Shown piece by piece: positions 13,980 through 54,222 of a stretch of DNA of 64,000 nt. The translations under genes and the position numbers were made by a program. The first letter of the stretch is position 1; every line of letters begins with the position of its first letter. This DNA is from an uncultured Flavobacteriaceae bacterium (GTDB lineage Bacteria; Bacteroidota; Bacteroidia; Flavobacteriales; Flavobacteriaceae): the NCBI GenBank assembly GCA_947502975.1, contig CANNBV010000003.1, forward strand, positions 682,001 through 746,000, in the 5' to 3' direction. The notes below the pieces were generated by a model. It did no database searches and was not told the DNA's origin. It saw nothing but the letters and a program-made list of their open reading frames with translations.

Positions 13980-14022
13980 AAAATAAGAGCCATCTCGTAA
14001 TTATTACGTACTGGTACGTATA
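13980..14022 (-). promoter_or_regulatory. Locus promoter box (a), for the T9SS gene at 13070
   Basis: On the minus strand TATACGTACCAGTACGTA (14022-14005) is followed by 15 bases and CTCTTATTTT (13989-13980). This is the most symmetrical of the seven copies: 7 of 8 base pairs of a 16-base palindrome match. It lies 83 bases before the ATG, against 51-56 at the others. Confidence 0.8.
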
Positions 14023-14070
14023 AATTAAGTGTTATCACCTTAATCCTATTTTTAACAGCTCTTTATTGCA

Positions 14071-14106
14071 TAGAAAAAGCCCCAAATTTTGTGAAATTTG
14101 GGGCTT
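14071..14106 (-). terminator. Strong terminator of the 3894-aa giant gene
   Basis: A 13-bp perfect stem (14077-14089 with 14094-14106, core AAGCCCCAAATTT) and 4-base loop are followed by TTTTTC on the minus strand, about 50 bases after the giant gene's stop. Confidence 0.9.
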
Positions 14107-14153
14107 ATCTATACTAATTACTCTTATACGAAATTACACAAAAGTAAATTGCA

Positions 14154-17100
14154 TTAATGCTTAACAGGGTAAGTAATAAATGTAGATGCTTTCTCTAACT
14201 TATCATTTATCTCTATATATTCTACCGTTATTGTTTTTGGTGTTTTCTCAACTTCTTTTGTTGTCAAAGATTTAGATGTTGTACCTCCTATTGGCAACTG
14301 TGTGGTATAGCCTGAAAAAGATAAACTAAACCCTGTGTTTCCTGGGTGGGTATACATCATGGTTTGCAATTGGGTAAAATCGCCTCCCGCACTGTAAAGC
14401 ACCTTGCCATCCATATCTAAATCTTCATTATAATAGCCTTCTATTCCTGTATAACTTAAGCTGAATGCTGCATTGCCTGGTTCTGAATATAGTTTTGTAG
14501 ATAGCTTTCCTGAATCTCCTGTCCCCGAAACATTAACAAAACCATTGCCATCTGCATCTCCTGCCAACATAGCCATAGGTCCTGCGCCTGTAAACGATAA
14601 ATCTATCTGAGCATTAATACCATAAGTTGGTACACTTCCATCGGTAAAATCTACCTCTGTTGGCGAAACACTTAAAGCTACTGTGTTAGCACTCATAATA
14701 CCTAAATGATTACGGTGTTTTACCACCACATAATAATCGCCTGCTGGTACATTATCAAAACGAACATCTGGAATCTTCTCAAAATATTCTTCTGATTGGA
14801 TAGTACCATCACGTTGTAATATTGCTGATTTTCCGGCTACGACTATCGTTGGGTCGCTTACATCTCTTAACTCTACCCAAATCCAATCTACCATGGCTCT
14901 ACTTCCTGCAACATTAAGTACCGAACCTCCTTGCAACATGTCAGCATAAGGGCTAGTTATTGGGATTAAATCATTAACTCGTAAATCGTCACGCATTAAG
15001 TTTTCTTCTCCTAAATTTGGTTTTAATGAAGCTCCTTGCAAATATACTTTTGGAGAAACTACAACAAAATCAGAACAATCCTTAGTATCTCCTGTAATAA
15101 ACCAACCATAATCATCTATAAGGGCTTGTCTAGCGCTTTCCCCATCGCAATAAATCAATGGTGATGAATTAAGTGATATGAAGCTTGTATTGGATGATTG
15201 TGGAATATCATCTACACCATCTCCAGCTCCTCCATCACTTGTATCTTCTGCCCAACCTATCAATGTAGCATCATAATTACTGCGATCTAGGTTAGTTTGG
15301 ACAAATATACCATTAAACGATGTGTTAATGCTCGATAAATCCCAATTGCTAAGACTTTGATTAAAATTACTAGCAGCATTAAACATGAATGCCATATTAG
15401 AAACATTGGAAACATCCCAATCATTTAAATCTTGATTAAAATTTTCCGCAAACTCAAACATACCTAGCATATTCAACACATTACCAGTCTGCCAATTATT
15501 AAGAGGTTGATTAAATGCAAGAGCCGCACTAAACATACCTTCCATATTCTTAACATTAGAGACATCCCAATCATTTAAATCTTGATTAAACTTGTCACTA
15601 GTACTGAACATCCGCTCCATTTCGATGACATTAGAGACATTCCAATCTGCTAAGGGTTGGTTAAAATTAAAAGTTCTTCTAAACATATAAGCCATACTAG
15701 TAACATTGGAAACATTCCAGTTTTCTATAGATTGATTAAATACAAAAGCTCCTGAAAACATAGATGACATAAGTTCTACATTACCAACATTCCAATTGCC
15801 AATGGCTTGGTTAAATGAGGATGCGTCTAAAAACAATTCTTCCATGTTTATAATATTAGATGTGTCCCAGTTATTAAAAGCACTAGTACCTACAAGAGAA
15901 TTACATGATTGAAACATAGCTTTCATACTTGTTACCTGAGATAGGTTTGGTGTATCTGTAGCAGTAACGTCTAAATTTTCACAGAAGGCAAAGGCCTCTT
16001 CCATGGAGCTCCACTGGATATTACCCCACTGACTTATTTCTACTATTTTTTCTAAAATAGCAGCTGATGTGTCTAGTTCTGGACCGGATCCAGAATCTAT
16101 ATAAGGCGCAATACGCACTCTTGGGAAAATTCCTTTTATGGCTATGGTTTTTACACCACCGTTACCATCTGTTAACGCATAATCATGGGTTAAAGCTTCG
16201 GTAGTTATTTGCACTGGCGACCCATCTCCCCAATCTATTTGGTAATAATAGGTTTCACCTTCTACTATTGGGAATGTGAATTCTAAATCATCATCTTCTA
16301 ATTGCCATTTGGTAATAAAGGCTTCTTCTCCTGAACATTGTGCGTTTTGGCCACCATCGGTCATATTCCAACCATACATAATCTCTAAATCATTTCTGGC
16401 GTCTTCAGCAAAACAATATTGATTACTACCTCCTGAAAAGGTAGCATTTTGTGGTATTTGTGCCTCATCTACATCTAAAGTTGCCCAACCGATTAAAGTG
16501 TTGTCATAGTTTTCTATAGATAATTGCGCCGATGTTAACATATTAGAAGCATTAGATAAACTGGAAATATCCCAAGCTCCTAAATTTTGATTAAAGGCTC
16601 CTGCTCCCAAAAACATACTAGACATATTAGAGACTTTAGACACATTCCAATTACCTATATCTTGATTGAAGGTTTCTGCTCCAAAAAACATACTGGACAT
16701 ATTGGATACATTAGAAACATCCCACTGGTCTAATGGCTGATTAAATAATATAGCGCTAATAAACATGTCTTTCATGTTGGTAACATTAGATACATCCCAA
16801 TCGTTAAAAGCAGATGTGCCAACTAGTTTTTCACACCCTGCAAACATAAGTTCCATAGAAGATACGTTAGACAAGTTTGGTGTGTCTGTAGCTGTAATAT
16901 CTAAATTTTGGCACAGAAAAAATGCTTCTTCCATAGTATTCCATGATGGGTTTTCTCCCCATTCCATGACCTCTAAAATATTGGATTCGCTACCTGTATT
17001 ACCGAATTTAATAGATTCTATTCTACCTATAACTGTTATAATATAATCGTCTCTAACCTCGCTATATTGATGTGTAGGGTTGTTGTTAGAAACAGAGTCT

Positions 17101-20100
17101 ACAGAACCATCTCCCCAAATAACTAGTACACTACCATTTGGTACTATGGGTAAGGTTATGGTTTGATTTGGAGCGGTTGTTTCCCATTTTGTAACAAAAC
17201 TAAGGTTTGAACACTCTCTTGCACCATCATTAATAGTCCAGCCAAAATTTGTTTCTAAATTAGTTCTTGCATCTTCACCAAGGCAATAGTTAGATAAGTC
17301 AGCGTCAAATATAACATCACTTGGTACATCATCTATACCATCTCCAGCTCCTCCATCACTTGTATCTTCTGCCCAACCTATTAATAAGGCATCATAATTA
17401 CTTATGGATAATGGCACACTAAGAAGCATGTTACCCATAATAGCAACATTAGAAATATCCCAATCACCTAGATCTTGATTAAAGCTAGTAGCATTAAGAA
17501 GCATTGAAGCCATATCAGTAACATTAGACACATCCCAATGCCCTATATCTTGATTAAAGCTAGTAGCACCAAGAAACATTCCTGTCATAGTTATGACATT
17601 ACCTGTTTGCCAATTTCCTAAAGGCTGATTGAAATTTTCAACTAGAACAAACATAGCATTCATATGAGTAACATTAGACACATCCCAATTATTAAATGCT
17701 GGTGTACCTACCAATGAAGAACAGAGTCTAAACATAGCTGACATTGATGTGACATTGGATAGGTCTGGGGCATCTGTTGCCGATATGTTTAAATTACTAC
17801 ACCCAGAAAAAGCTTCTTCCATAGAAGTCCACTGTATATCTCCCCATTGTATAACATCTACTATTTTATCTATTGATTCGTCACTGTTTGGAAAATATAT
17901 TCTTGGAAAATCTCCATAGATTTTTACTTCATATTCTTCTTCAGAAACATATGTATGAGAAGCATCACCTGTTAAGCCTATACTAATAATACCATCTCCC
18001 CAATCTACTGTATAATTGTAACCATCACCTACTGTTGGAATGGTTATACTTTCGCCAGCTTCTACATTCCATTTTGTTATAAAGGGCGAAAAATTAGGAC
18101 TTGTGCATGTAATAAAATCAAAACCATTATCATTAATATTCCATCCATAACCACCATTAGATACCGATTCTACTAAAAGATTTCTTGCATCTTCTCCTAA
18201 ACAATATTGACTACTACCTGCATCTAATGATAAATCTGTTGGGATTGGCCCTTCTCCTGCTTCTTGAGTTGACCATCCTATGAGCAGCGCATCATAATTT
18301 TCTGTAGAGAGTGTTACATTAGTAAACATATCTGCTCCAAATTGTAAACTTGTAATATCCCAATCACCTAGATTTTGATCAAAACTAGTCGCTCCAGAAA
18401 ACATGTTACTCATTCCTATAACATTTGATACATCCCAATTATTTAAGGGTTGATTAAAGCTTATACAACCATTAAACATATTATCCATATAAATAATATT
18501 GGATACATCCCAATTACTAATATCACCGTCAAAATTTATACAGTCAACAAACATAGATTCTATATTTGTAACATTAGATAAATCTGGCTCGTCTATATCT
18601 GGGTTAGTAATCTTTAAATTTTCGCAACCATGAAATGCTCTAAACATTGACGTCCACTCAATATCTCCCCATTGCTCTATGGTTTCTAACTTGTTTCTAT
18701 TATTACTCTGGTCTGAAGGAAAAAAGTTAATTCTTGGAAAATCACCATATATTTTAACTTCGTAAGTATCTGTTGTAGCATAGGTATGGCTTGCATTACC
18801 TGTTACATCACTTTGTATAGTACCATCGCCCCAATCTACAATATAATTATAGCCACTACCTGTTGTAGGTATTGTAATCATATCAAAAGGTGTGGTTGTT
18901 TTCCATGTTGTAATAAAAGGTGCAGGAAGACCGCATGTTGGATTTTGTTGAGCATCATTAATAGTCCAGCCAAAATTTGCTATTAAATTAGTTCTTGCAT
19001 CTTCTCCATCGCAATAACGACTGTTAGGTGCATCAAATTCTACATCAGTTGGTATCTGCGTTTCACCAGCATCTAAACTAGCCCAACCTATTAATAAGGC
19101 ATCATAATTTTCTGTTGAGAGGTTTACACCATTAAACATACCTATTGCAAAATCTAAAGAACTGATATCCCAAGCTCCAAGATTCTGATCAAATGATACT
19201 GCACTAGCAAACATACCATTTGCATTAACCAAACTTGATGTATTCCAAGAAGTAATATCTCCATTAAACGATTGTGCATCTAAAAACATCCCTTCCATAT
19301 TAATTACATTAGATACATCCCAGTTATCAAGAGGCTGATTGAAATCTAAAGCAGCTAAAAACATTGCTTCCATATCAATGACATTAGAAACATTCCAGTT
19401 ATTTAAAGGTTGATTGAATGTTGTACCAGAAAGGACTCTACTCATATGAGTAACATTAGAGACATCCCAATTATTGATATCGCTGTTAAAATTTGAACAC
19501 TGAAAAAACATGTTACTTAAATTAGAAACATTAGATAAATTTGGTACGTCTGAAGCGGTTACAATTAAATTACTACACCCAGAAAAAGCATTTTCCATAG
19601 AAGTCCATAGTATATCTCCCCATTGTACAACTTCTATTATTTTGGCTTTATTTTCATCAGTAGAATTGCTAAAATCAATTCTTGGAAAAACGCCATAGAT
19701 TTTAACTTCGTAAGTATCTGGTGTAGTATAGGTATGACTTACATCTCCTGTTATATTATTTTCTGAAGTACCATCACCCCAATCTACTATGTAATTATAA
19801 ACCTCGTCTGGCGATGTAGGGATTGTTATATTCATCCCGTTAGTGGCATCCCATTTGGTAGTAAAAAAAGCAACATTACTACAATCTAAACCAGCATCTA
19901 CAATAGTCCATCCTAGGTCTAGTAACTGATTTTTACCAGATTCTCCCGCGCAATAACTTGCTTCTGTACCAAAAGCGATTCCAGATGGTATCTGCGTTTC
20001 ACCAGGATCTAGAGTACTCCAACCATTTAATAAGGCGTCATAATTGGCTGCAGAGAATGTCGGATTATCCTTAAACATATCTTCAGCACCATTAAAAAAA

Positions 20101-23100
20101 GGTATAATAGTAAAACGTACTAAACTAGAAATATCCCAATTACTTATATCTTGATTAAAAGCAAGAGCAGCTCTAAACATACCACTCATATTTTCAACAT
20201 TAGATACATCCCAGTCTCCTATATCTTGATTAAAAGCTTCAGCACTATAAAACATGTAAGTCGTAGTTGTAACATTAGAAACATTCCAATTACTTATATC
20301 TTGATTAAAAATTGAAGCAAATCGAAACATGTTAGCCATATCTGTTACATTAGACACATCCCAATTACTTATATCTTCATTAAAAAGCCGACAATTAGTA
20401 AACAAGGAATTCATATTTGTAACATTAGAAACATCCCAATTACTAAATGAGTCGTTTCCTACTAGAATTCTACAACCAGCAAACATGTCCTCCATACTAG
20501 TTACTTTCGATAAATCTGGTATGTCTGTTGCTGAATATTCTAAATTAATACATCCAGAAAAAGCACCTTCCATTGTTTCCCATTCATTATCTCCCCATTG
20601 TACTACCTCAACTAGTTTATCTTTGTCGAAGCCATCAGTAGTAGAAAAATCAGTACCTGGAAAAATACCATAGATTTTTACTTCAAAAATTTCAGTTCTA
20701 TTGGGAAACCGATGGCGATCAATACGACCTCGAGAGTGCTCTAAAGCCGAACCATCTCCCCAATCAATGACATAATCATAATTTCCCGGAAGATCTCTTG
20801 GTACCGGTATGCTTAAGAAATTTCTATTTCTTACTATATTCCATCTTGTTATAAAAGGTGTTCTATTTAAATAGCATTCTAGATTTTCATACCCTCCATC
20901 TGTGATATTCCAGCCAAATTCTATTCTTAATGTCTTTCGCTCATATATTGCTTCGCAATAGGTACTATTACCTGCGCTAAAAGTTATATCTTGTGGTATT
21001 TGTGTTTCGTTAGTATCTAACGTACTCCAACCTACTAATAAGGCCTCATAATTTTCTGTAGATAATGCGACATTTTGAAACATGCTAGCTGCGTTTTCTA
21101 AACTAGAAATATCCCAGTTACCCAAATCTTGATCAAAGAATGATGCATTTGCAAACATACTACTCATGTCAGTAACAATACTTACATCCCAATTGCTCAA
21201 ATCTTGATTAAAGGATGATGCATTTGAAAACATATCACTCATGCTAGTAACATTACTTACATCCCAATTGCTCAAATCTTGATTAAAAGTATAAGCTTCA
21301 GAAAACATTTCACTCATATTTGTAACACTTGACACATTCCAATTGCCTATATCTTGATTAAAAGCAGAAACAAAAGCAAACATAGCAGTCATATCTGTTA
21401 CATTACTAACATTCCAATTGCTCAAATCTTGATTAAAAGCAGAAGCAAAAGCAAACATTTCACTCATATTTGTCACCTTACTAACATTCCATGATGAAAT
21501 ATCTCTATTAAAATTAGTATTTTCATTAAATAATTGCGACATATTTTCTACGTTACCAACATCCCAATTTTCAATATTTAAATTACCTCCAGCATTATAA
21601 AATGTACCTTTCATAGAAGTAACTTGACTTAAATTAGGTGCATTTGTTGCAGTAACTTGTAGATTTACGCAGCCCCAAAATGCACCTTCGAAAGACCTAT
21701 AGATAATATCTCCCCAGTCTGAAACTTCAATTATTTTAGGAGCTTCAGCATCGTTATTAAATTGAAATCCAGGGAAATCTCCTGTAATTGACACTTCGTA
21801 TATACCTTGTTGTGCATAGCCATGAGTAAAATCTCCTGTAAGACCAGTACTTGTAGTACCGTCTCCCCAATTTACATTGTAATTGTATGTTTCTCCTTGT
21901 ATTGTACGAATTGTTATTTGATTATTATTAGATGCGCCATCATTATTGGTTCTCCACTTAGTTACTAATGGGTCCATAGCAGCACAATTTACTCTACCAT
22001 CATCTAAAATTGTCCAACCTTGATTTTGTATTAAGTTCTCGTGTTCTTCATTTGCAATACAATAATTAATGCCTTCAGCTCCAAAGGTTACACCTTGGGG
22101 TATGGCTGTTTCTCCTGCATTAGTATTTAAGGTATTCCAGCCTATTAATAGGGCATCGTAATTTTCTATAGATAAACCAGAATTATTAAACATATTATCT
22201 GCTTGTTCTAAACTAGAAATATCCCAAGTACTTAAATCTTGGTCAAATCCAATAGCACCTTCAAACATGTTAGCCATATTTGTTACATTAGACACGTCCC
22301 AAGTACTAATATCTGGATTAAAATTAACCACCTCCTTAAACATATTCCCCATAGAAATAATATTGGACACATCCCAATCGCCTAAAACTTCCGGATTGGT
22401 GATGACCGCTTTACTAAACGCAGAACCCATCTTAGTTACATTGGAAAGGTTTGGTGGTGTTTCAGGTAATGTAAGATTACATGATGGAAATGCAAATTGA
22501 AAAGACAACCATACATTATTGCCCCAACTCTCAACAGCCTTTAAGGCTTCTCTATCGTTAGTACTCGAGAAATCATATCGAAAACCACCTATGTTACCAT
22601 AAATTTTTATAAAATATTCTCCTGCTCCAAAATAAACATGAGACGTAAAATCATCATATCCTGTAACATAGGTGCCATCTCCCCAATCTACCGCATAGGT
22701 TTCATTTGAATATTGGTCTAAGGGTAGATTAAAATTTTGATTATCGGAAGTGGTCTCTATACGTAACACTACCGGGGCAGCACAATCTATATTAGATACA
22801 CTCGCCGAACAGGTTGCCATATTGGCCGCAGCATCGGTAGCGTACAACGTAACATCTAGAGTAGAAGGACCATCACAACCAATGATTATAGGTAATGAAG
22901 AACGTATATTGGTATCTGTTGTTATTGTTCCTGTTAAAGATTGAAACGTTGAGCTTGTAACATCTGCGCCATATACATATAAATAATATACCGTATTAGG
23001 ATGCATAAAATATGTATTGCTACCCTCTACAATAGTATTTGTTTCACTATCAATTGTTGCGCCTCCTATATAGCCTTGTCGTTCTGCCAACTCATCTGCA

Positions 23101-25860: not shown

Positions 25861-25889
25861 GTGCAAGGTAGATTGAGTATTAGTTTTGA

Positions 25890-25932
25890 AAAATAAGAGA
25901 CAGCACGTAAATACTACGTAGCGGTACTTATA
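25890..25932 (-). promoter_or_regulatory. Locus promoter box (b), for the 3894-aa giant
   Basis: TATAAGTACCGCTACGTA (25932-25915), then 15 bases, then CTCTTATTTT (25899-25890) on the minus strand, 52 bases before the ATG. Confidence 0.85.
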
Positions 25933-25945
25933 TTGTACTATTTTT

Positions 25946-26839: not shown

Positions 26840-26845
26840 AGTTAA

Positions 26846-26950
26846 TTATAATTTGGTTTTTAATAATTCATTTAGCATTGTATATTGAAACTTTACATAA
26901 GATTTATCATGTAGAAAATATTTTTCATAATTAAAGGGAGACACTTTCAT
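26846..26950 (-). pseudogene. Truncated 5' end of a former giant-protein gene
   Basis: A locus promoter box, the conserved leader (CCTTGCACACGATTTA) and an ATG at 26950 stand in the same spacing as at the giant genes. The frame (MKVSPFNYEKYF) matches the giant start MKVKAPF only for the first residues, then drifts and stops after 34 codons. It ends 6 bases before the ATG of the 252-aa T9SS gene. It may now act only as a leader ORF of that gene. Confidence 0.55.
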
Positions 26951-27000
26951 AACTATATAGTTATAAATCGTGTGCAAGGTAATTTGAATGTTTACTCTAT

Positions 27001-27043
27001 AAAATAAGAGACGGCTCGTAAATACCTAGTAGTAGTACTTATA
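27001..27043 (-). promoter_or_regulatory. Locus promoter box (c), at the truncated leader upstream of the 252-aa gene
   Basis: TATAAGTACTACTACTAG (27043-27026), 15 bases, CTCTTATTTT (27010-27001) on the minus strand. This is the most diverged left half of the seven, with the spacing unchanged. Confidence 0.75.
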
Positions 27044-36729: not shown

Positions 36730-36780
36730 GATTATTTAAATTTTAAATCATGTGCAAGTTAGTTTGAGAGTTCGCTTTAT

Positions 36781-36823
36781 AAAATAAGAGACGGCTCTTA
36801 GATACTACGTAGTGGTACTTATA
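36781..36823 (-). promoter_or_regulatory. Locus promoter box (d), for the 3184-aa giant
   Basis: TATAAGTACCACTACGTA (36823-36806), 15 bases, CTCTTATTTT (36790-36781) on the minus strand, 52 bases before the ATG. Confidence 0.85.
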
Positions 36824-36850
36824 AATAATTCTTCTACTAGTAATCGTTTT

Positions 36851-40800: not shown

Positions 40801-43800
40801 CCATCACCCCAGTCCACATCATACCTATAAGCTCCGCCTGCAGTAGGAATAGTTATGGTTTCATTAGGGTTATCTGTTTGCCATGTTGTTATAAATGGAT
40901 TAGATGTAGTTACTGTTACTTTAGACTCACAATAAGACATACGACCAAGGTCATCTATAAGAACAACATATATGGTATTCTCCCCTATATCTGCAGAGGT
41001 ATAGGTTATAGCATCGGAAGTATTAAAACCTGTACCTGTATTTATACCCCCACTAAATGTTGCTGGTGCCCCAGACTCGACTACAACTTGAAGATAATAG
41101 GTTGTTCCACTACTTAAAAACACAGCATCATTATTACTAAAAGACCCTAGGTAATTATTGGGTTGATTGTATACGAAACCATCTAAAAATCCTGGTCTGT
41201 TTGTAACATCTCCTGTATTTGGTGCAACAGGTTGTTCACTTACAAAAACAAACAATAAATCATCTGCATCTGAAGTACTAAAGTTAAACTGTGGTGCATA
41301 GTTACCATCTTCTGGTACGGTAAACGTGAATGATTCATAATATATTCCTGTTCCTTCATCGAAAACATCATCTGTAGGGCTATTTACTATTGTTTGTCCA
41401 TTAAATTCCTCTCCTATTCCACTATTACCTGGTTCTGTATCTGTTAAATACCAAGAAGCACCTTCACTAACACAAGGGCCTTCAAACCCAGTAAAAAGAT
41501 CATCAATAGTAACTATTACTTGGTCATTAAAACTTAATGCTACCGTTTTATCTCTACATAAGACTTGAGAATCTTCTAACGTAATATTAACATGAGATAT
41601 ACAAGTGTCTTTATTACCTGCTGCATCATAAACAGTTAATGTTATTTGATTCGCTCCTGCATCGGTACAACCAAAAAAAGAGTTGTCTATGAGCATTAAA
41701 GCAATACCGACATCATCTGTGGAATTATTGTTAATAAGGTCTGGAGAAGGTGAAAAACCTGATGAATCCAGAGTAATATTTAAATCTTGACAAACCGCAC
41801 TAGGAGGTACATTATCGTATGGAAGGTCATAAGTGCCTACCGGAAAAGGTACTGGAGCTGTTGCATTTGTTAGCGGGTTACCAAATAAAATATCTTGACC
41901 AGGTATACGCCAGTTAGACTCTATAAAACCTCCATCTGGCCCTGTGTTATTTATACGGTATGCCCAACCCTTTGTGAAATTCCATGATGCAGTACCTCCA
42001 TTAACATTAACATCACCATAACTATCTAATAATACAGGAGACTCAACTTCATCAACAAATAATTCGATAGCAAAATAGCCTCTAAAATCATTGATTCTGC
42101 CTAAATTAAAATTGGCTGCAAACCCAAAAAACGCTTCAAAAGTATCTAGATCACTGGTTAAATAAATAAAATCTCCTGCAGTAGCAGAACCAGAGAGGTA
42201 AAATTCTTGACCATCTGAACCTCCGCCATCACCCACAATACCAATGGAAAACACACTTAAATCTGGAATATCTTCATAGACGTACAATTCAATCGCATTA
42301 GTAAACACAGTATTGGCAGACATAACACCAGTAATTTTTATGGGACTTGGTCCTAATGATGTCATAACGTTTACTTCCGAACCTAGATCTGCATCCACAC
42401 CAGCTTCTGGGTTTTGACTAATAATATTGCCTAAAGTAATGGTTTGGCTATAGAATTCAGTATTAGTACCTAGCATCAATCCAACATTTGTTAATGCTAC
42501 TTCTGCGTTAACTTGGGTATCTCCTGTTAGATCAGGAACACTAATCTGAGGACATTGTTTTCCTCCATCTGAAATTGTCCAAGAAGCATCGTCTATTAAA
42601 CTTTGTCTTGCATCTTCTCCTAGACAGTAAACACTGCTGCTTCCTGCATGAAATGTAACATTGGTAGGAATTTGTGTTTCTTCATCACTTAAGGTTTGCC
42701 AACCTATTAATAAGCTATCATAATTTTCCCAGGATAATGATGTACTTGATAACATTGCAGCTGCAGAATCTAAACTAGAAATATCCCAATTGCCTAAATC
42801 TTGATTAAATGAAGATGCTGCAAAAAACTGATGCGACATATTCTCTACCGCTGAGACATCCCAATTGTCCAATGGTTGATTAAAAGTAATTGCACTACGA
42901 AACATTTCTGACATGGTCGTTACGTTAGATACATCCCAATCGTTCAGTGGTTGATTAAATAACAAAGCTGCATAAAAAAGTTCTTTCATGCTTGTTATTG
43001 TTGAAACATTCCAAGTATTAAAGGCAGGTGTTCCTACTAAATTTTCACAAGCAAAAAACATCCCGTTTAAAGAACTTACCTGTGATAAATTAGGTGTATC
43101 TGTTGCTGTTACATCTAAATTTAAACAACCAAAAAAGGCATATTCCATAGACGACCAAGGGTAGCTTCCCCATTGAGAAATTTCTAAAAGCTTTTGATAA
43201 TCGCCAGTAGCATTAAAATAAATTCTTGGGAAATCGCCATAGATTTTTATTGTATGTATGTCAGGAGCGGCATAAGTATGGCTTGTATTACCCGTTATAT
43301 TATTCTGTATTGTACCATCACCCCAATCTACAGTATAATTATATCCAGATCCTGTTGTTGGAATAGTTATAATCTCATAAGGAGTGGTAGTTCTCCATTT
43401 TGTAATAAATGCATCCGAACAATTACTTCCAGCATCTGTAATGGTCCAATTTAATCCAGATGGATCGGTTAATATATCTCTTGCGCTTTCTCCAATACAA
43501 TATTGACTGTTTCCACCATTAAGAACAAGGTTTGAAGGGATTTGAGTTTCACCTGGATCTAAAGTACTCCAACCTATTAATAAGTTGTCATAATTTTGTT
43601 GAGACAATTTAGCACCAATAAACATTTCTTCAGCGCTTGTTACATTAGAAATATCCCATGCTCCTATATCCTGATCAAAAGCATATGCATTTTTAAACAT
43701 GTGGAATGTACTTCTTAAGTTAGACACATCCCAATTGCTAATATCCTGATTGAACTCATGTGCATTGACAAACATATAACCAGCTTGTCCTAAGTTACTC

Positions 43801-46721: not shown

Positions 46722-46773
46722 AACTTAAAGGGGTTTTGTTATTAAACAAAATTACCTACTAAGCATATATCAA

Positions 46774-46816
46774 AAAATAAGAGGTGGCACACATATACTA
46801 CGTGCCAGTACGTATA
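46774..46816 (-). promoter_or_regulatory. Locus promoter box (e), for the 3258-aa giant
   Basis: TATACGTACTGGCACGTA (46816-46799), 15 bases, CTCTTATTTT (46783-46774) on the minus strand, 53 bases before the ATG. The leader beyond the box differs from those of the other giants. Confidence 0.85.
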
Positions 46817-46838
46817 AAATATAACTGCTTAAACCTAT

Positions 46839-47207
46839 TTACCCTACATCATGAAGCTTAAGTTCTGTTTTTAACTTAGAGAATATCTTTTTAGCAGATA
46901 AATCTTTACTCATACTGTAGCTGATGGATTGAACAATACCTGCTTTTTGACCTATCTCGTCTTTAGATCCCAATATTAGAAATTTAGACCTAATACGCTT
47001 AAAAACCAATGCCGTCTTTATGTCTGCAGCATTAAGCCCTGGCAATTCTTCTTCAACAATTACTAATTGGTTACGATTTTTTATAATATGCCTTAAAGCT
47101 TCAAAGCCATCGAAAAAAATATGAATATCTGTAAAGCCGTTTTTAAAAAAGAATATTTTTAATTGCTCTACATATTCTTTATCACTGTGGGCTAATACTA
47201 TTTGCAT
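46839..47207 (-). CDS. Stand-alone degenerate receiver-domain protein
   Basis: The 122 aa have the alternating pattern of a CheY-like receiver with no output domain. Compared with the adjacent response regulator, the acidic pair before the phosphorylation site is replaced (AHSD instead of ADDH, residues 6-9). The phospho-acceptor Asp is Glu52 (VIVEEELPG), and the switch Thr/Ser is in the odd context LILGSKD. The conserved Lys (Lys101, SMSKD) remains. It therefore cannot be phosphorylated in the usual way and may be locked in one state, since Glu often mimics phospho-Asp. It lies between the response regulator and the first giant gene with its own promoter box, so it is probably a modulator of this system. 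Confidence 0.7.
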   Translation of the reverse strand: MQIVLAHSDKEYVEQLKIFFFKNGFTDIHIFFDGFEALRHIIKNRNQLVIVEEELPGLNAADIKTALVFKRIRSKFLILGSKDEIGQKAGIVQSISYSMSKDLSAKKIFSKLKTELKLHDVG

Positions 47208-47262
47208 CCTTTGTTTCTATCATAATTCAAAAAATGCAATGTATATTGAAAAGTTAATGTGT

Positions 47263-47305
47263 ACCATAAGAACTAATACGTAATTATTACGTATTGGTAC
47301 TTAGT
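47263..47305 (-). promoter_or_regulatory. Locus promoter box (f), for the pseudo-receiver gene
   Basis: ACTAAGTACCAATACGTA (47305-47288), 15 bases, TTCTTATGGT (47272-47263) on the minus strand, 56 bases before the ATG. The box begins at the base next to the response regulator stop codon. The right half is the least conserved of the seven. Confidence 0.7.
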
Positions 47306-47953
47306 CTATTGGGATAATATAACAGTTCTATTTACCAAAGCCCAATTTGTAAGTACGTTATTCCCTTTTTTAAGCCCTAGTTTTTCAATAATATTACTGC
47401 GATGTTTTTCAATAGTTCGAATTGATAAAGATAGGGATTCAGCTATATCTTGATTTGAAATTTCCTGAGCAATAAGTTTTAATATTTTTGTTTCTGAAAG
47501 CGTTAATAAATTTAAACGTTTTAGTTCGTCTGTTGCTAAGTTTAAAGGTTTATCATCTATGGATTTACTATAATAAATATTGCCCTTTAAAACCTCTTCA
47601 ATGCAATGATCTATTTCAAAAAAACCATCTTCTTTTAAAAGGTAACCATCTATTTGAAATGTTTTAGCCTGAACAATGTAATAGGCTTCTTTATGAAATG
47701 ATAAGATAATGAATTTGGTTTTAGATCCTTTTTCTCTTGCCATTTTAATGACTTCAAACCCTAAGAGAAGTGGCATATCTATATCTAGTAATGCAATATC
47801 GGGATGCAACTTTAATATAAGCTCCAATGCTTGTATGCCATTATTAGCCTGTGCAATGACATTGTAGCCATTAGATATTAACTCATCATTCAAGCCTTTT
47901 AAAAGCATTGGATGGTCATCTGCAATAACTAAAGTAATGTCTTTTTTATTCAT
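47306..47953 (-). CDS. NarL/FixJ-family (LuxR-type HTH) response regulator
   Basis: This protein has 215 aa. The receiver holds the acidic pair Asp12-Asp13, phospho-acceptor Asp57 (IALLDIDMP), Ser85 in the switch position and Lys107 (YLLKEDG). The C-terminal LuxR HTH spans about 148-210 (LTLSETKILKLIAQEISNQD, RTIEKHRSNIIEKLGL). Its ATG lies one base beyond the stop of the last kinase gene, so it is translated with the three-kinase operon. HisKA_3-type kinases pair with NarL-type regulators, so these kinases are its expected phosphodonors. I infer that it binds the near-palindromic box repeated in front of all units of this locus, which would make the operon autoregulated. Confidence 0.9.
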   Translation of the reverse strand: MNKKDITLVIADDHPMLLKGLNDELISNGYNVIAQANNGIQALELILKLHPDIALLDIDMPLLLGFEVIKMAREKGSKTKFIILSFHKEAYYIVQAKTFQIDGYLLKEDGFFEIDHCIEEVLKGNIYYSKSIDDKPLNLATDELKRLNLLTLSETKILKLIAQEISNQDIAESLSLSIRTIEKHRSNIIEKLGLKKGNNVLTNWALVNRTVILSQ

Positions 47954-47954
47954 G

Positions 47955-49976
47955 TTAAATGGGGATATTTAATGTTAATATAGTGCCTTTTCCTTTATTG
48001 CTATTAAGGTTAATCTGAGCATTCATTATTTTAGCACGTTCAAGCAGGGTTTTTAAGCCTAGACTCATGCTCTTGAATTTAGAATCAAAATCAAAACCTT
48101 TTCCATTATCACTTACGGTAACATGTATATTTCCAGAGGTCTTATTAATATTCATTTTAACAGCCTTAGCTTCTGCATGCTTTACAATATTACTTAAAGT
48201 TTCTTGAATTATTCTATATAAGTGTAATTCTGAATCTTTAGGTAATACATTGTCGACATTATCAACCTCATCTGTAAAAAACAAATCGGTATTGGCATTA
48301 ATATCATAAACCAATGCATTAATAGCTTCAGTTAATCCCAGGCGTACGAGGTTTGAAGGATGTAAGCCTCTTGAGATACTGCGGACTTCCTCTAAGGTAT
48401 TGGTTGCTAACTTCTCTGCATTTTCATCTCCCAGTTTTTGAGTTGTTTTAGAAAGCAACATTAATTTTTGACCAACACTATCGTGTAATTCCCTGGCTAA
48501 ACGAGAACGTTCTTTTTCTTGTTCATTTAATAAATCTTGAGAGAATTTTTCTTGTAGTTCTTGTTTAGACCTAACAAATCTTTTAGAACGTACTAAATAT
48601 ACAATTGTAAATATTGCTAATAACCCTAAACCTCCAAATAAGAGCCATTGTTGTTTTATCTTGTTTTTTTGGTCTAAAATTGTAATCTTTCTTTTTTGAG
48701 ATGCTATTTGAAAGTCACGTTTTTCGGTTTCATACAAGGTTTGATAATAAGATAATATCCGAGTTTTTTTCACACTCAATAAAGAATCTTTTAATTTAAT
48801 ATGCTTGCTGTTATAGATATAAGCATTTTCATAATCATTCATGGCCTTAAAAATTTTAGACATCATTTCATATGTATAATATTCACCAGCAAAATCTTCC
48901 GACTCTATATCAATTTTCAATTTTCTTTTGGCTTGAATCAAAGCTTTGTCATATTCTTTTTTAGCAAAAAAGTAAGCCATTAATCCGTCTATATAAACCG
49001 CTTCGTAAGGAATCTCATCTTTAAAAGCATATTTCTCTTGAATTAGGTCATAATATTCTTTAGCTTTAACAAGGCTATCACTTTCAGTATAAGCTAAAAA
49101 AAGCTGGAAAATAACCAAAGGTTTATTTGGGAATCCATTTTTCAATTGCATTCCGCAATGGTAATATTCTTTTAACCTCTTTATTCTTAATTTTTGATTT
49201 CCTGCTAGTTCTGCTTGATAAGCATTGTCAAATAAATGTGGGTGTATGCATTGACAATAATCTTTGTATAATTTACACAATTCCATAGCTTCTTGCGTAA
49301 TTTTCTTTGCTTCTTCCTCAAAGCCAATATAACTATATAGTTCAGCAATCCCCTCTTTAGCGTAACTCATACCTATAGTATCCTTAACTAATCTATAAAT
49401 TTCTACACTTTTAATTAACTCTTGCGATGATTTAATAAATTGCCCCATATCTAACAAAGAGGTAGCTTTGAAATACTTAGCTTCAGCATAGGCTGAACTG
49501 TCATTTAATCGTAAAGCGAATTGCTCTGCTTTTTCATACAATTCAACTGAAGTTTTTGTCTCTCCAGAGAAATAATAAAGATCTCCTCCTCTTATATAAA
49601 ACAATCTGGCTATGTCGTCGTCAGTTAGTTTTGACCCAAGTGATTCATATTGTTTAAAAACCTCCAAACCTGTTTCCGGGAATTCAGAAGTTAGACTATA
49701 ATAACGTGAAATATCATTTAATTTTTTACCAGCAAGATTAAATGAATCTAATTCAATAGCATAATCTATAGTAGTCTTAGCTATGGAATCAAATGGATAG
49801 TCTTGATTATAACCTATGGTTTTAAACAAACTATCCAGCAATTTAAGTTTAGTTAGACCTTCAGTTTGACTAATTTCAGCTTTTAGTTTTTGTATTTTAA
49901 TATCCAAAGTCGATTCCTGAGCATAAGAAGCTAAGTAGCCAAATAATATTATAAAAACTAATAGTTGTTTTTTCAT
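47955..49976 (-). CDS. TPR-containing sensor histidine kinase (HisKA_3 type), third of the operon
   Basis: This protein has 673 aa. The signal peptide MKKQLLVFIILFGYLASYAQ and a periplasmic region of TPR-like helices (about 60-420) come before a transmembrane helix (WLLFGGLGLLAIFTIVYLV, near 445-463). A coiled stretch follows, then the HisKA_3 dimerisation and phospho-acceptor motif LARELHDSVGQKL with His498. The ATPase domain has the N-box area HLYRIIQETLSNIVKHAEAK (given in part), DNGKGFDF and GKGTILTL. The partner is the NarL-type regulator directly downstream. It is paralogous to the two upstream kinases, and its catalytic half shares a 101-base identical stretch with the middle kinase gene. 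Confidence 0.9.
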   Translation of the reverse strand: MKKQLLVFIILFGYLASYAQESTLDIKIQKLKAEISQTEGLTKLKLLDSLFKTIGYNQDYPFDSIAKTTIDYAIELDSFNLAGKKLNDISRYYSLTSEFPETGLEVFKQYESLGSKLTDDDIARLFYIRGGDLYYFSGETKTSVELYEKAEQFALRLNDSSAYAEAKYFKATSLLDMGQFIKSSQELIKSVEIYRLVKDTIGMSYAKEGIAELYSYIGFEEEAKKITQEAMELCKLYKDYCQCIHPHLFDNAYQAELAGNQKLRIKRLKEYYHCGMQLKNGFPNKPLVIFQLFLAYTESDSLVKAKEYYDLIQEKYAFKDEIPYEAVYIDGLMAYFFAKKEYDKALIQAKRKLKIDIESEDFAGEYYTYEMMSKIFKAMNDYENAYIYNSKHIKLKDSLLSVKKTRILSYYQTLYETEKRDFQIASQKRKITILDQKNKIKQQWLLFGGLGLLAIFTIVYLVRSKRFVRSKQELQEKFSQDLLNEQEKERSRLARELHDSVGQKLMLLSKTTQKLGDENAEKLATNTLEEVRSISRGLHPSNLVRLGLTEAINALVYDINANTDLFFTDEVDNVDNVLPKDSELHLYRIIQETLSNIVKHAEAKAVKMNINKTSGNIHVTVSDNGKGFDFDSKFKSMSLGLKTLLERAKIMNAQINLNSNKGKGTILTLNIPI
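48349..48449. repeat. 101-bp identical block between kinase genes, copy 1
   Basis: It is identical to 50424-50524, within the region coding for the phospho-acceptor helices. The flanks are less similar, which points to local gene conversion or strong constraint plus recent duplication. Confidence 0.8.
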
Positions 49977-50023
49977 TGATTTCTTATTAATTCGAACGGC
50001 TTATCTGGTACATGTTTTACTTT

Positions 50024-52078
50024 TTAATTTGGTATTGGCACACTTAATTTCATAATAGTACCTGCACCTTTTTTTCCTTCTAAACTCAATACTGCATTTA
50101 TTATGTTAGCACGTTCAAACAAAGTTTTTAATCCTAAACTCATATTCTTGAGCTTTACTTCAAAATCAAAACCTTTACCATTATCGCTAATCATAACCGT
50201 TACATTTTTGGACGTATTATCTACTTTCACCTTAACAGCTTTGGCTTCTGAATGCTTTATAATATTATTTAGAGTTTCTTGAATTATTCGATATAAGTGT
50301 AATTCTGATTCTTTAGATAATGCATTGTCGATATTATCAATCTCATCTGTAAAAAACAAATCGGTATTGGCATTAATATCATAAATCAATGCATTAATAG
50401 CTTCAGTTAATCCAAGGCGCTCAAGGTTTGAAGGATGTAAGCCTCTTGAGATACTGCGGACTTCCTCTAAGGTATTGGTTGCTAACTTCTCTGCATTTTC
50501 ATCTCCCAGTTTTTGAGTTGTTTTTGAAAGCAACATTAATTTTTGACCTACACTATCATGTAAATCTCTAGCTAAACGAGAACGTTCTTTCTCTTGTTCA
50601 TTAAGTAAATCTTGAGAGAATTTTTCTTGTAATTCTTGCTTTGAAGCTATAAATCTTCTTGATCGTATTAAATAAATGATTAAAAAACCTAACAATAAAC
50701 CAGCACCTCCAAATAACATCCATTGTCTGTTTATTTTATTTTCAGCATCTAATAAAGCTATTTGCGAAGCTTGATCTGCTATTTTAAAATCGCGTTTTTC
50801 GGTTTCATATAAGGTTTGGTAGTAAGATAGTGCTCTGGATTTTTGAATACTGTTAATAGAGTCTTTAAATCTATTATATTTTGAAGTATATGTAAAAGCC
50901 TTTTCAAAATCATTAAGTCCGCTGTAGATTTTAGTTAATTTATCATAAGACTCATAAATCCCTTCGGTATTGTTAGTACTCAAATGAATGTCTAAAGCCA
51001 TTTGCGCATTAGTTAATGCGTTTTTATAATTTCCAACAGCAATAAAATAATCTGCTAAAGACGACCTGTATGCGTATTCAAAGGGAACAGGTTTGTTGTT
51101 TGAAAATTTATTCTGAATTTTATTAAAAAATTGTTGAGCTTTAACTAAGCTATCATTCTCTGAATAAGCACTCAAAAGAGCGTAAGATATTATTGATGAT
51201 AGTTTTGTACGTGGTGTTGTAGACTCATCTGGCGTATTGTAATAATAACATTCATTTAAATACTTAAGCCTCAATACTTGATCACCATTTTTATTAGCGT
51301 CAATTGCAGCATTAAATAAATTAGGAATTAAAGCTCTGTAATCTCTTTGTGATTTGCTAATCTGAATAACTTCGGCACGCTCTTTCTTAGCTTCTTCATA
51401 AAATCCCATTTTACTATATACTACTGCTAATGTATTTCTTGCACCTATCAAACGGGTAGTATCTTTTAAAATAGTAAATATTTTAGCTGTTTCTGAAAGT
51501 AATTGTGACCCAGTAGCATAATCTCCCATATCTACAAACGCAGATGCTTTATATGTTCTTGCTTCAGCATATAATATGCTGTCATTATCTTTTAAAGCAT
51601 ATGCTTCAGCTTCATCATATATTGGAATAGATTCTTTTATAGTTCCTGAAAAAAAATAAGCATCTCCTGCATTCGTATATAATCTTGCAAGTATATCGTT
51701 ATCACTTATATTTAACTTTTTCTTTTTAAAATCATTAAAAACGTTTATTCCTTCTTTTGGTTTATTAACTCTATTTGCATAATAAAAGATTAAAGATGAT
51801 GTTCGAGCAACAGCAATTTCAAGAGAGTCCATTTTATAAGCATACTCTATAGTAGCTCTAATAATTGAGTCTGCTTTTAATTTAGGGTTATTAGTATAAT
51901 TAATTAAGCGAGATAAGCTATCCATAAGTTTTAGCTTTGATCCACCTTCTAACTCAGAAATTTTAATTTTTAGTTCTTTAACTTGATTGGTAAGTGCTTC
52001 TTGCGAATACGTTAAAGTAGGTATTAGCAAATACATACTTGTAATAAACAATATACTTAAATGCGCTATTTTATTCAT
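50024..52078 (-). CDS. TPR-containing sensor histidine kinase (HisKA_3 type), second of the operon
   Basis: This protein has 684 aa with the same plan as its neighbours: signal peptide (LSILFITSMYLLIPTLTYSQ), periplasmic TPR-like helices, membrane helix (WMLFGGAGLLLGFLIIYLI), phospho-acceptor LARDLHDSVGQ with His507, and an ATPase domain with DNGKGFDF and GAGTIMKL. The ligand-binding TPR part differs more between the three kinases than the catalytic part does, which suggests different signals feeding one regulator. Its start overlaps the first kinase's stop by 8 bases, so translation is coupled. Confidence 0.9.
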   Translation of the reverse strand: MNKIAHLSILFITSMYLLIPTLTYSQEALTNQVKELKIKISELEGGSKLKLMDSLSRLINYTNNPKLKADSIIRATIEYAYKMDSLEIAVARTSSLIFYYANRVNKPKEGINVFNDFKKKKLNISDNDILARLYTNAGDAYFFSGTIKESIPIYDEAEAYALKDNDSILYAEARTYKASAFVDMGDYATGSQLLSETAKIFTILKDTTRLIGARNTLAVVYSKMGFYEEAKKERAEVIQISKSQRDYRALIPNLFNAAIDANKNGDQVLRLKYLNECYYYNTPDESTTPRTKLSSIISYALLSAYSENDSLVKAQQFFNKIQNKFSNNKPVPFEYAYRSSLADYFIAVGNYKNALTNAQMALDIHLSTNNTEGIYESYDKLTKIYSGLNDFEKAFTYTSKYNRFKDSINSIQKSRALSYYQTLYETEKRDFKIADQASQIALLDAENKINRQWMLFGGAGLLLGFLIIYLIRSRRFIASKQELQEKFSQDLLNEQEKERSRLARDLHDSVGQKLMLLSKTTQKLGDENAEKLATNTLEEVRSISRGLHPSNLERLGLTEAINALIYDINANTDLFFTDEIDNIDNALSKESELHLYRIIQETLNNIIKHSEAKAVKVKVDNTSKNVTVMISDNGKGFDFEVKLKNMSLGLKTLFERANIINAVLSLEGKKGAGTIMKLSVPIPN
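50424..50524. repeat. 101-bp identical block between kinase genes, copy 2
   Basis: This is the partner of 48349-48449. The first kinase gene does not share this exact stretch. Confidence 0.8.
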
Positions 52079-54125
52079 TTTTCAAAGGTATACTTAATGT
52101 TATTACCGTGCCTTTTCCTAGATAACTTTCTATATTCAAATTGGTATTGATAATTTTTGCACGCTCTTCAATGGTTTTCATCCCTAAACTCATCTTATAG
52201 CTGTGATTTTTATCAAAACTAAAACCTTTTCCGTTATCTCTAATAAACATCTCGATAGTTTCAGATACTTTTTTAATATTAATTTTTACAGCTTTAGCTT
52301 CTGAATGCTTTACAATATTGTTTAAAGTTTCTTGAATAATTCTGTAAAAGTGCAATTCTGAAGTTCTAGATAACAATCCATCAATATTATCTACATCCTC
52401 AGAAAAAAATAAATCTGTATTAGAATTTATTTCATATATCATAGCATTTATGGCCATAGTCAATCCTAAGCGTTCTAAATTAGAAGGGTGCAGTCCTCTG
52501 GAAATTTGACGTATCTCTTCTAAAGTTGTATCAACCAAATGCTTTGCATTAGTATGTACTGTATTTTTAATAGTTTTTGATAATAACATTAATTTTTGAC
52601 CTACACTATCATGCAATTCCCTTGCTAAATGAACACGCTCTTTTTCTTGTTCATGTAACAAATCTTGAGAAAAATTTTCTTGTAGTTCTTTCTTATAAGC
52701 TATAAATTTTCTTGAACGTAATAAATAGATGATTAAAAATAATAATAATAAACCAGTACCCCCAAATAACATCCATTGTTTGTTTATCTTATTTTCAGCA
52801 TCTAATAAAGATATTTGTGAAGCTTGTTCTGCTATTTTAAAATCGCGTTTCTCCATTTCATATAGTGTTTGATAATAAGACAGTGTTCTAGCTTTTTTTA
52901 GGCTATTAACAGAATCTCTATAATGATTATACTTAGTTGTGTAAGCATAAGCATTTTTATAATCATTGCACTTTTTATATATTTTTGCTAACCTATTGTA
53001 GGACTCAAAAACTTCTTCAGCCAAATTAGCATCCAAGAACATATTTAAAGCTTTTTGGGCTTCTGGCAAAGCCTTTCTATAATCATGCGTTGCTATATAA
53101 TAATCTGCTAAAGCAGATCTATAAGTACTTTCATAAGGTATTGGAATTCTAGTTCCGTATGTTCTCTGAATATTTTCATAGTATGTTTTAGCTTTAACCA
53201 AACTATCATTATCGGCATAAGCTCTTAAGAGATTATAACTGATTATAGGCTTAAGAGAGAAGCCTTCGTTAGATTTAAAACCATATGCATAAGCTTCTTT
53301 GAGATAAGCTATACGTGATTTCTGATCTCCAATTTTATCGGCATCTATTGAAGCATTATGTAAATTAGACTGTAGACTATTATAATCTTTTGCTAAAACT
53401 GATAAAGCAATAACTTCATCACGTTCTTTTTTAGCGTTTTCAAAAAAACCCATTTTACTGTAAAGTGTCGCTAAGGTATTTCGGGCAATGAGTAAACCCG
53501 AAGTGTCTTTTTTAACTGTTAAAATTTTTACTACTTCAGAAAGTAATTGTGATCCAATTGCATAATTACCCATGTCTACAATAGCTCCTGCTTTATAAGT
53601 TCTTGCTCGAGCATATAGTGCACTATCTTTTGCTTTTAAAGCCCATATTTCTGACTTATTATACAGCGATATAGATTCTTTGAGCTCCCCCGAAAAAAAA
53701 TAACTATCGCCTCCATTCATATACAATTTAGCTAGCAATATATTATCTTTTATTTGCAGGTTTAATTCTTCAAACTCTTTAAATAGCAGCATACCTTTTT
53801 CTGGTGTTTCAGAACTATTTGCGTAGTAAAAAACAAGGTCAGACATATATTGTCCAGCTAGATTAATAGAGTCTAGCTCCATAGCATAAGTTATTGCTTT
53901 CCTCGCTATTGAATCATATTGATATTCTGGCTTATCCAAAACAAGCGTATGTAAACTATCTAATAACTCAAGTTTTTCATAGTTCTTAGCTTTGGCAATA
54001 TCTTTTTTTAACGTTTGGACCTTTAACTTTACTGAAGATTCTTGAGCATCTGTGGAAACATATTGAAGCATAAACAAAGACACAAATACCACTTTTGTTT
54101 TTAAATCAAATATTCGTAATCCCAT
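52071..54125 (-). CDS. TPR-containing sensor histidine kinase (HisKA_3 type), first of the operon
   Basis: This protein has 684 aa from the ATG at 54125. A start at 54155 is also possible. I prefer 54125 because it gives a compact signal peptide (MGLRIFDLKTKVVFVSLFML) and places the promoter element 55 bases upstream, as at the other boxed genes. It has periplasmic TPR-like repeats, a membrane helix (WMLFGGTGLLLLFLIIYLL), LARELHDSVGQ with His505 in this numbering, and an ATPase domain with DNGKGFSF and GKGTVITL. It is the most diverged of the three paralogues and opens the operon of three kinases and the response regulator. Confidence 0.9.
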   Translation of the reverse strand: MGLRIFDLKTKVVFVSLFMLQYVSTDAQESSVKLKVQTLKKDIAKAKNYEKLELLDSLHTLVLDKPEYQYDSIARKAITYAMELDSINLAGQYMSDLVFYYANSSETPEKGMLLFKEFEELNLQIKDNILLAKLYMNGGDSYFFSGELKESISLYNKSEIWALKAKDSALYARARTYKAGAIVDMGNYAIGSQLLSEVVKILTVKKDTSGLLIARNTLATLYSKMGFFENAKKERDEVIALSVLAKDYNSLQSNLHNASIDADKIGDQKSRIAYLKEAYAYGFKSNEGFSLKPIISYNLLRAYADNDSLVKAKTYYENIQRTYGTRIPIPYESTYRSALADYYIATHDYRKALPEAQKALNMFLDANLAEEVFESYNRLAKIYKKCNDYKNAYAYTTKYNHYRDSVNSLKKARTLSYYQTLYEMEKRDFKIAEQASQISLLDAENKINKQWMLFGGTGLLLLFLIIYLLRSRKFIAYKKELQENFSQDLLHEQEKERVHLARELHDSVGQKLMLLSKTIKNTVHTNAKHLVDTTLEEIRQISRGLHPSNLERLGLTMAINAMIYEINSNTDLFFSEDVDNIDGLLSRTSELHFYRIIQETLNNIVKHSEAKAVKINIKKVSETIEMFIRDNGKGFSFDKNHSYKMSLGMKTIEERAKIINTNLNIESYLGKGTVITLSIPLKNE

Positions 54126-54179
54126 ATGAGTATACCTTAAAATTATGCTAAACAAACATACAGGAACGAGTCATAGTAT

Positions 54180-54222
54180 TAAATAAGAGGCAGTACTTAA
54201 CTTATACGAGGTAGTACTTATA
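54180..54222 (-). promoter_or_regulatory. Locus promoter box (g), for the kinase/regulator operon
   Basis: TATAAGTACTACCTCGTA (54222-54205), 15 bases, CTCTTATTTA (54189-54180) on the minus strand. It lies 55 bases before the ATG at 54125. Its presence here implies autoregulation of the signalling operon. Confidence 0.8.

Follow-up and report, generated by a model that had tools for sequence, protein, structure and literature searches.

A 64,000-nucleotide stretch of DNA from an uncultured Flavobacteriaceae bacterium (GenBank assembly GCA_947502975.1, contig CANNBV010000003.1, forward-strand positions 682,001 to 746,000; hereafter the window) carries a locus, with all its genes on the minus strand, that encodes three giant proteins, three sensor kinases, a response regulator (RR) of the NarL/LuxR type and a stand-alone pseudo-receiver, and in which a 43-base motif recurs seven times. 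We consider it very probable, from the anatomy and conservation of these sequences, that the locus's own RR has this motif as its operator. The RR would then be the activator of an autoregulated two-component system that controls giant exported proteins. The seven sites are most likely paired landing sites for this one regulator encoded in the cluster. An earlier note on this DNA had described them as activator-type sites of fixed geometry that define a locus-wide regulon; this is supported by the co-occurrence of the operator with relatives of the regulator and by its constant promoter register, and the same co-occurrence backs the note's choice of the regulator at 47306-47953 as the best candidate binder.

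Anatomy of the operator

All seven 43-mers that had been reported were found on the minus strand at the coordinates given, the outermost at 13980-14022 and 54180-54222. In an alignment of the seven, each site consists of two 16-bp palindromes of the form TAmGTr-N4-yACkTA, whose centres lie 21 bp apart, giving a 37-bp operator with four half-sites TA(A/C)G(T/A)(A/G) that face each other in pairs with 4 bp between them. Among the 28 half-sites the G is conserved in 28, the T in 27 and the A in 26. The earlier note had read each site as an 18-base near-palindrome, 15 bases and CTCTTATTTT. These parts are indeed present, but they are better understood as two palindromes and a T tract: the near-palindrome corresponds to the first dimer site, and CTCTTATTTT, which had been taken for a core promoter element, is instead the last half-site (CTCTTA) of the second dimer site together with the T-rich -33 region. 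As the palindrome centres are 21 bp, or two helical turns, apart, all subunits of the bound protein would lie on one face of the DNA. The operators, each with the -7 box discussed below, are as follows.

13984..14020, minus: tandem operator 1, TACGTA-N4-TACGTA-N5-TACGAG-N4-CTCTTA, before the 275-aa protein with a type IX secretion system (T9SS) tail; -7 box TACATTGC at 13953..13960, minus
25894..25930, minus: tandem operator 2, before the 3894-aa giant; -7 box TACCTTGC at 25863..25870, minus
27005..27041, minus: tandem operator 3, with one degenerate half-site, before a 34-codon frame and then the 252-aa T9SS-tailed gene; -7 box TACCTTGC at 26974..26981, minus
36785..36821, minus: tandem operator 4, before the 3184-aa giant; -7 box TAACTTGC at 36754..36761, minus
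46778..46814, minus: tandem operator 5, before the 3258-aa giant; -7 box TAATTTTG at 46747..46754, minus
47267..47303, minus: tandem operator 6, between the RR gene and the pseudo-receiver gene; -7 box TACATTGC at 47236..47243, minus
54184..54220, minus: tandem operator 7, before the kinase/regulator operon; -7 box TATGTTTG, of sigma-A type, at 54153..54160, minus
12738-12774, minus: degenerate eighth operator, directly followed by no gene but only by a terminator-like stretch

Operator 1 is accompanied by a weaker third palindrome 21 bp further upstream. The distance from motif to start codon, put by the earlier note at 51-56 bases for six of the seven sites, falls in that range at five (51, 51, 52, 55 and 54 nt, the last using the ATG at 54125) but is 82 nt at another, and the site at 27001 (operator 3) lies 161 nt from the 252-aa gene or 50 nt from the ATG of the 34-codon frame. 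The regulator's operon was also said to carry the motif. Operator 7 (54180-54222) does precede that operon, but the site at 47263-47305 (operator 6) is located 3' of the regulator gene, before the 122-aa pseudo-receiver gene.

Two further features of the window touch on these sites. The 34-codon frame behind operator 3 (in 26840-26950, beginning MKVSPFNYEKYF) starts 50 nt past the motif, where the start codons of the giants lie at other sites, and may be the remnant of a giant gene. Similarly, within 12576-13000 the gene-less eighth operator is followed by a look-alike of the terminator-like stretch that lies behind the 13070-13897 gene, which looks like the trace of a lost unit.

Uniqueness of the sites in the genome

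With a leave-one-out half-site model, all seven left-out sites outranked every window position outside the site neighbourhoods (scores of 20.6-31.8, against 12.6-14.0 for the best positions elsewhere in the window), and none of 100 Markov-1 resamples of the window reached a score of 18. This symmetric model replaced a first, asymmetric matrix, which was dropped as it ranked the left-out site 47263 below a non-site. Across the whole genome, the pattern at up to three mismatches occurs in 16 places: the seven sites at zero or one mismatch, one place at two and eight at three, the last including the degenerate eighth site and two places in the repeats of the 3894-aa gene. The reversed control pattern was found in 15 places, of which one is at one mismatch or fewer. 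Under a sequence-only model, R1, the seven sites score at least 37.3 bits and nothing else in the genome exceeds 26.5 except the same places on the opposite strand, these figures being drawn from 150 scored candidates of 5256 found at first look. R1 was built from alignment A2, which holds 49 of 52 listed stretches (omitting L082:10649 and two of L117); its training set includes the seven window sites, and spacing-22 sites and L095 are absent from the list of 52. In these scans the motif has no equal elsewhere in the 4.5-Mb genome. The earlier note's observation of no further copy is correct, in this genome, for the full tandem form, but weaker related sites lie beside two paralogues of the regulator. 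A search of the window with Rfam at gathering threshold, and for tRNAs, gave no matches.

A constant promoter register

In all seven window sites a TAnnTT(TG/GC) box, which we take to be the core promoter, begins at the 24th nucleotide past the 37-bp operator, so that the operator ends about where the -33 element of a promoter would be. The operators of relatives have TAnnTT at 23-25 nt in 47 of 54 cases, and 12 other 3-nt bins hold between zero and five of the 54 each; two overlapping operator calls, L083:11107 and L105:10640, were removed before counting. In L095, one of the seven misses, the box lies at 24 nt on the opposite side, in front of a gene oriented in that direction. Only 10 of 61 sites have a TTG that begins 1 or 2 nt past the operator, in the place of the -33 element, a scarcity such as would be expected of activator-dependent promoters.

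The window boxes match the types known in Bacteroidota, two of the seven being TAnnTTTG and five TAnnTTGC, of the TAnnTTGY class. According to a study on flavobacterial promoters, TAnnTTTG is the -7 box of sigma-A and TAnnTTGY that of motif SM5, and its authors hold SM4-6 to be most likely due to alternative sigma factors (PMC9723704). The two classes are unevenly distributed among the operators: those before kinase operons have six TAnnTTTG, two TAnnTTGY, one other box and two with none, whereas all other operators have 9, 28, 8 and 5, respectively (Fisher p 0.011 for the two main classes, with L081:2067, which is indeed followed by a kinase gene, counted as a kinase-operon site; p 0.0035 if it is moved to the other group). 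This skew, along with the ascription of SM4-6 to alternative sigma factors, suggests that the regulator alone may not suffice for the giants and that another sigma factor may be required as well.

The regulator and the operator in relatives

The RR (47306..47953) has a receiver domain (PF00072, E 1.2e-19), whose phospho-acceptor D57 is invariant in 12 of 12 aligned sequences, and a C-terminal GerE/LuxR helix-turn-helix (HTH) domain (PF00196, E 2.9e-11), in which RT-[IV]-EKHRSNII is retained in the aligned sequences. A profile search of contigs with regulator alignment A1 yielded at least 399 confirmed relatives, the best of which gave 79 named loci. For the spacing and co-occurrence counts these loci were searched with a half-site matrix built from the window sites alone; a search of relatives with R1 is partly circular, its training species being among the relatives searched.

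Among the best 79 loci, matches scoring at least 24 occur at a centre spacing of 21 in 20 loci and of 22 in six, with none at the other spacings from 14 to 35. At a score of at least 18 and spacings of 12-39 there are 82 matches, with 47 at 21 and nine at 22 (56 together), eight at 31, four at 33 and no more than three at each remaining spacing; the Markov-1 control gave one match in 395 resampled loci. The operator is present in 29 of these 79 loci, and its presence follows the identity of the regulator: 7/7 at 80% or more, 16/38 at 54-66% and 6/34 at 53% or less. The last six are on contigs labelled Crocinitomicaceae, Saprospiraceae, Roseivirgaceae, Reichenbachiellaceae and, in one case, Rickettsiales.

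The seven close loci, those with an RR at least 80% identical, are labelled Lacinutrix, Psychroserpens, ALC-1, Kordia and, for three of them, Winogradskyella. All seven have an operator ahead of the kinase operon, right after the RR (starting within about 11 bp past its gene) and ahead of a giant, and they repeat the order operator-kinases-regulator-operator-pseudo-receiver-operator-giant. In the 45 loci with an RR of at least 54% identity, the operator is found in 15 of 15 with a large open reading frame (ORF; at least 800 codons, with its start no more than 2 kb 3' of the RR) beside the regulator and in seven of 30 without one (Fisher p 5e-7, the species being non-independent). In a separate set of 198 relatives, six of nine other genomes with an RR of at least 60% identity show tandem sites near it. 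One genome, G107, has operators before giants also on contigs C1, C8, C2 and C12, its window-type regulators being on C3 and C5; four of its nine operator-bearing giants are on contigs other than these two.

Genes of the locus

The genes associated with the operators are the following.

52071..54155, minus: sensor histidine kinase with a signal-peptide-like start, TPR, HisKA_3 and HATPase (Pfam/NCBIfam); likely ATG at 54125
50024..52078, minus: sensor histidine kinase with TPR, HisKA_3 and HATPase (Pfam)
47955..49976, minus: sensor histidine kinase with weak TPR, HisKA_3 and HATPase (Pfam)
47306..47953, minus: NarL/LuxR-type RR with receiver D57 and GerE HTH, the proposed operator binder
46839..47207, minus: stand-alone degenerate receiver of 122 aa (weak receiver match), a pseudo-receiver with Glu replacing the phospho-acceptor Asp
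36945..46721, minus: 3258-aa giant with DUF285/PARCEL repeats, PKD and PASTA, and a signal-peptide-like start
27175..36729, minus: 3184-aa giant with DUF285/PARCEL repeats, HYR and PKD
26081..26839, minus: 252-aa exported-looking protein with a type A T9SS sorting domain (Pfam/NCBIfam)
14154..25838, minus: 3894-aa giant with DUF285/PARCEL repeats, HYR and PKD
13070..13897, minus: 275-aa exported-looking protein with a type A T9SS sorting domain (Pfam/NCBIfam)

The three HisKA_3 kinase genes lie directly upstream of the RR gene, and a homologous kinase is found beside the RR in all seven close loci. The receiver Asp is missing in the 122-aa protein and in its counterparts of the seven close loci, with Glu in its place in seven of these eight proteins (IVEEELPG, IIEENLPN and the like) and His in that of L083 (ILHNKLPD). 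The more distant counterparts in L114 and G089 keep the Asp, and that of G089 is a full second regulator. The pseudo-receiver is likely to have arisen by duplication of the regulator, with the HTH and phosphorylation lost afterwards.

All three giants begin with signal-peptide-like sequences, and the 3184-aa protein shares 84% identity with the giant of a Lacinutrix-labelled contig (L078) over 2247 aa. Neither Pfam nor NCBIfam revealed a known C-terminal sorting domain in the three at E 0.01, so that their location at the surface is presumed. An AlphaFold model of their shared C-terminal domain had a mean pLDDT of 36.5, which is too low to use. In the G107 stretches, nine of 21 ORFs with this domain have an operator scoring at least 16 within 700 nt upstream; the stretches were picked for DUF285 or operator matches or regulator genes, and this share is therefore biased. 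The domain was ruled out as an exact marker of operator-bearing giants, 12 of the 21 being operator-less.

Elsewhere in the window (8350-11665, plus strand) is an overlapping pair of genes for a 904-aa STAND/NACHT-like ATPase with TPR, an assignment from weak Pfam matches none of which is above cut-off, and a 207-aa protein without a Pfam match. The idea that this pair is a defence system was dropped, as PADLOC gave no match.

Proposed mechanism and alternatives

In the mechanism that we propose, two RR dimers would bind side by side at each operator, with the downstream dimer abutting the -33 region, and the regulator would recruit RNA polymerase to the TAnnTT(TG/GC) box in a class II-like mode of activation. 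The RR would be phosphorylated, on a signal, by the three TPR sensor kinases, whose genes stand in the same run as its own and are probably co-transcribed with it. The RR would then switch on its own kinase/regulator operon, giving a positive feedback, and likewise the pseudo-receiver, the three DUF285/PARCEL giants and the two small T9SS-tailed proteins.

Several observations weigh against this scheme. The RR could in principle act as a repressor. Six of the 54 operators of relatives have no -7 box at the expected distance on either side. No operator was found in the available stretch of 22 of the 38 loci with an RR of 54-66% identity, 11 of the 22 being Aequorivita; a large ORF beside the RR is lacking in all 22, and the stretches of L111 and L119 reach only about 1 kb or less beyond it. 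G065, G085 and G038 (the best RR of G038 being 60% identical) show no site near an RR of at least 60%. In G107, 12 of the 21 ORFs with the giants' C-terminal domain lack an operator at the above score and distance, and the one other DUF285 gene of the window's genome (E of 1e-8 or less; C4:293341, a 559-codon frame) has none either.

It is unlikely that the operator is a repressor site through which the RR keeps the giants off until phosphorylation releases it. The downstream half-site does touch the -33 region, and a protein bound there could block it; however, the operator stops just short of -33 and, with the constant -7 register, has the layout of BvgA acting as an activator at fhaB, and the rarity of -33-like TTG in the 61 sites is, we infer, that of activator-dependent promoters. 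We regard as a little less likely still a scheme in which the sites bind another regulator, such as the RR paralogue G000:C1:1033364 (48% identical) or C1:428623 (42%), and the local RR has its own sites elsewhere. Related sites are found beside both paralogues, in tandem with spacing 20 at C1:1033364 and as single palindromes at C1:428623, so that the half-site preference seems to be shared and cross-talk is plausible. The tandem 21-bp form, however, tracks the window-type RR, being present just after the RR gene in 7/7 loci at 80% identity or more, and 11 other same-genus genomes, with best RR matches of 41-47%, show no window-type site at one mismatch or fewer.

A role in recombination or cassette shuffling, rather than regulation, is very improbable. 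The gene-less copy at 12738-12774 with its look-alike terminator and the 34-codon frame after 27001 do suggest past rearrangement, but the seven copies share their orientation and -7 distance, the site follows the RR across genera with differing units, and no recombinase domain is present among the window proteins scanned with Pfam (a subset of the ORFs). The version of the earlier note, in which an 18-base activator site is joined to a core promoter element, CTCTTATTTT, we find scarcely credible. While CTCTTATTTT or a close variant is present in all seven window sites, in relatives its place is often taken by TACGTA, CTCGTA or CACTTA, a half-site facing another 10 bp upstream, and it is the TAnnTT further on that is conserved. 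The autoregulated activator remains the reading that we prefer.

Comparison with known systems

BvgA of Bordetella is a member of the NarL family, and fhaB encodes a very large adhesin. As described in PMC7250471, BvgA binds at fhaB as head-to-head dimers every 22 bp, the nearest abutting -35. The window operators resemble this arrangement in having tandem dimer-type sites two helical turns apart (22 bp there, 21-22 bp here), the last of which abuts -35 or -33. The likeness is one of geometry only (a spacing of 21-22 bp, and 23 nt from operator to -7 box); in contrast to BvgA-fhaB, the present system belongs to another phylum, uses another half-site and a Bacteroidota -7 promoter, and has three TPR kinases beside the RR, an extra pseudo-receiver and T9SS-tailed companions. 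The analogy supports the view that the regulator may work like BvgA.

SprB is a giant adhesin. In Flavobacterium psychrophilum the gliding operon remF-remG-sprC-sprD-sprB-sprF has two listed promoters, SM5 and SM4 (sigma-54 type), of which SM5 (TAnnTTGY) is comparable to the TAnnTTGC of five of the seven window sites; it differs in the additional SM4 promoter, and TACGTA is absent from the main text of that paper (PMC9723704). The repeat carried by the window giants (TIGR02167, PF03382) is that of the PARCEL/DUF285 proteins, which is called horizontally distributed in the title of a paper whose main text contains no word starting with 'regulat' or 'promoter' (PMC2996958). Among two-component pairs of the NarL/UhpA type, the best NCBIfam models were MctR for the RR and MctS for the first kinase, with PRK15369 and NarL as other models for the RR, all below cut-off; membership in MctR/MctS was rejected, the scores being 137.8 of 300 bits and 111 of 700 bits against the curated cut-offs. 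Open-access literature searches found nothing on this operator.

Paralogous regulators and short RNA candidates

A regulator paralogue of about 42-45% identity, with counterparts in many of the searched Flavobacteriaceae genomes, has one to three single palindromes TACGTA-N4-TACGTA alongside, with the same -7 spacing. Examples of such arrays are listed here.

L207:8330-8615, minus (G000:C1 ~428330-428615): paralogue array
L218:8143-8460, minus: paralogue array
L219:2148-2760, plus: paralogue array

Most of these palindromes precede a unit of about 75 nt (GCTATTAATTAGTTCTTAGGGAGAATTA...) that ends in a terminator-like stem. In 24 aligned units of the 35 collected, 12 of 14 predicted stem pairs vary on both sides, and Rfam found only tRNAs in the five loci scanned. 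The units may form a multi-copy family of small RNAs controlled by a response regulator. An analogy to GacA-Csr was dropped, as no CsrA was found in the genome. At the array end in L207:8207-8308 (minus), and similarly in L218 and L219, there follows a frame of about 30-40 codons that by eye encodes a small membrane-like peptide.

Another paralogue, of 47-48% identity, is accompanied in L073:9962-20000 and L074:311-10592 by a 304-aa protein, a giant of about 2,800 aa and a related site. This site has spacing 20 in the window's own genome; in G002 only its first palindrome scored.

It is conceivable, though less likely than not, that an ancient family of Bacteroidota regulators, all using the operator code TACGTA-N4-TACGTA at a constant -7 distance, has split into two outputs. 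A widespread branch would act through single palindromes on a multi-copy, short, terminator-ended RNA beside its gene. A patchy branch, represented here, would act through paired palindromes on giant surface proteins, often with TAnnTTGY, an alternative-sigma-like box, and on its own kinase operon, mostly with a sigma-A box, such that the giants would need two keys; the pseudo-receiver under the same operator might tune the circuit.

Evolution of the locus

In a tree of 87 regulators the window RR groups with those of the seven close loci (support 100/100), and tandem operators fall in two separate parts of the tree. The best RR matches in 11 other genomes of the same genus are 41-47% identical, and a window-type site at one mismatch or fewer was not found in these genomes. 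The locus adjoins mnmE, and nothing of it is present beside mnmE in nine same-genus genomes. The contents of the mnmE flanks (54348-55736 in the window; L169-L176 and L074) mostly differ by ORF sizes, those of G009 and G001 being alike, and in G002 a different kinase-regulator-giant set occupies the flank. These differing contents make the locus look like an exchangeable island; islands are known to occur at mnmE (trmE), and this side of the gene may be a hot spot for exchange.

Implications

To our knowledge, few response-regulator operators are known in Bacteroidota. The one described here can be recognised in the sequence itself, keeps a constant distance to its promoter and is found again in Flavobacteriaceae and in more distant loci, and it provides a rule for target prediction along with a named candidate regulator. 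While a NarL-family regulon with paired dimer sites is known as a kind, the operator code, the Bacteroidota promoter register, the circuit of three kinases and a pseudo-receiver, and the giant-protein targets proposed for it appear to be new. The architecture is close to that of BvgA-fhaB in another phylum, and the operator opens the question of when these bacteria make their 3,000-residue proteins.

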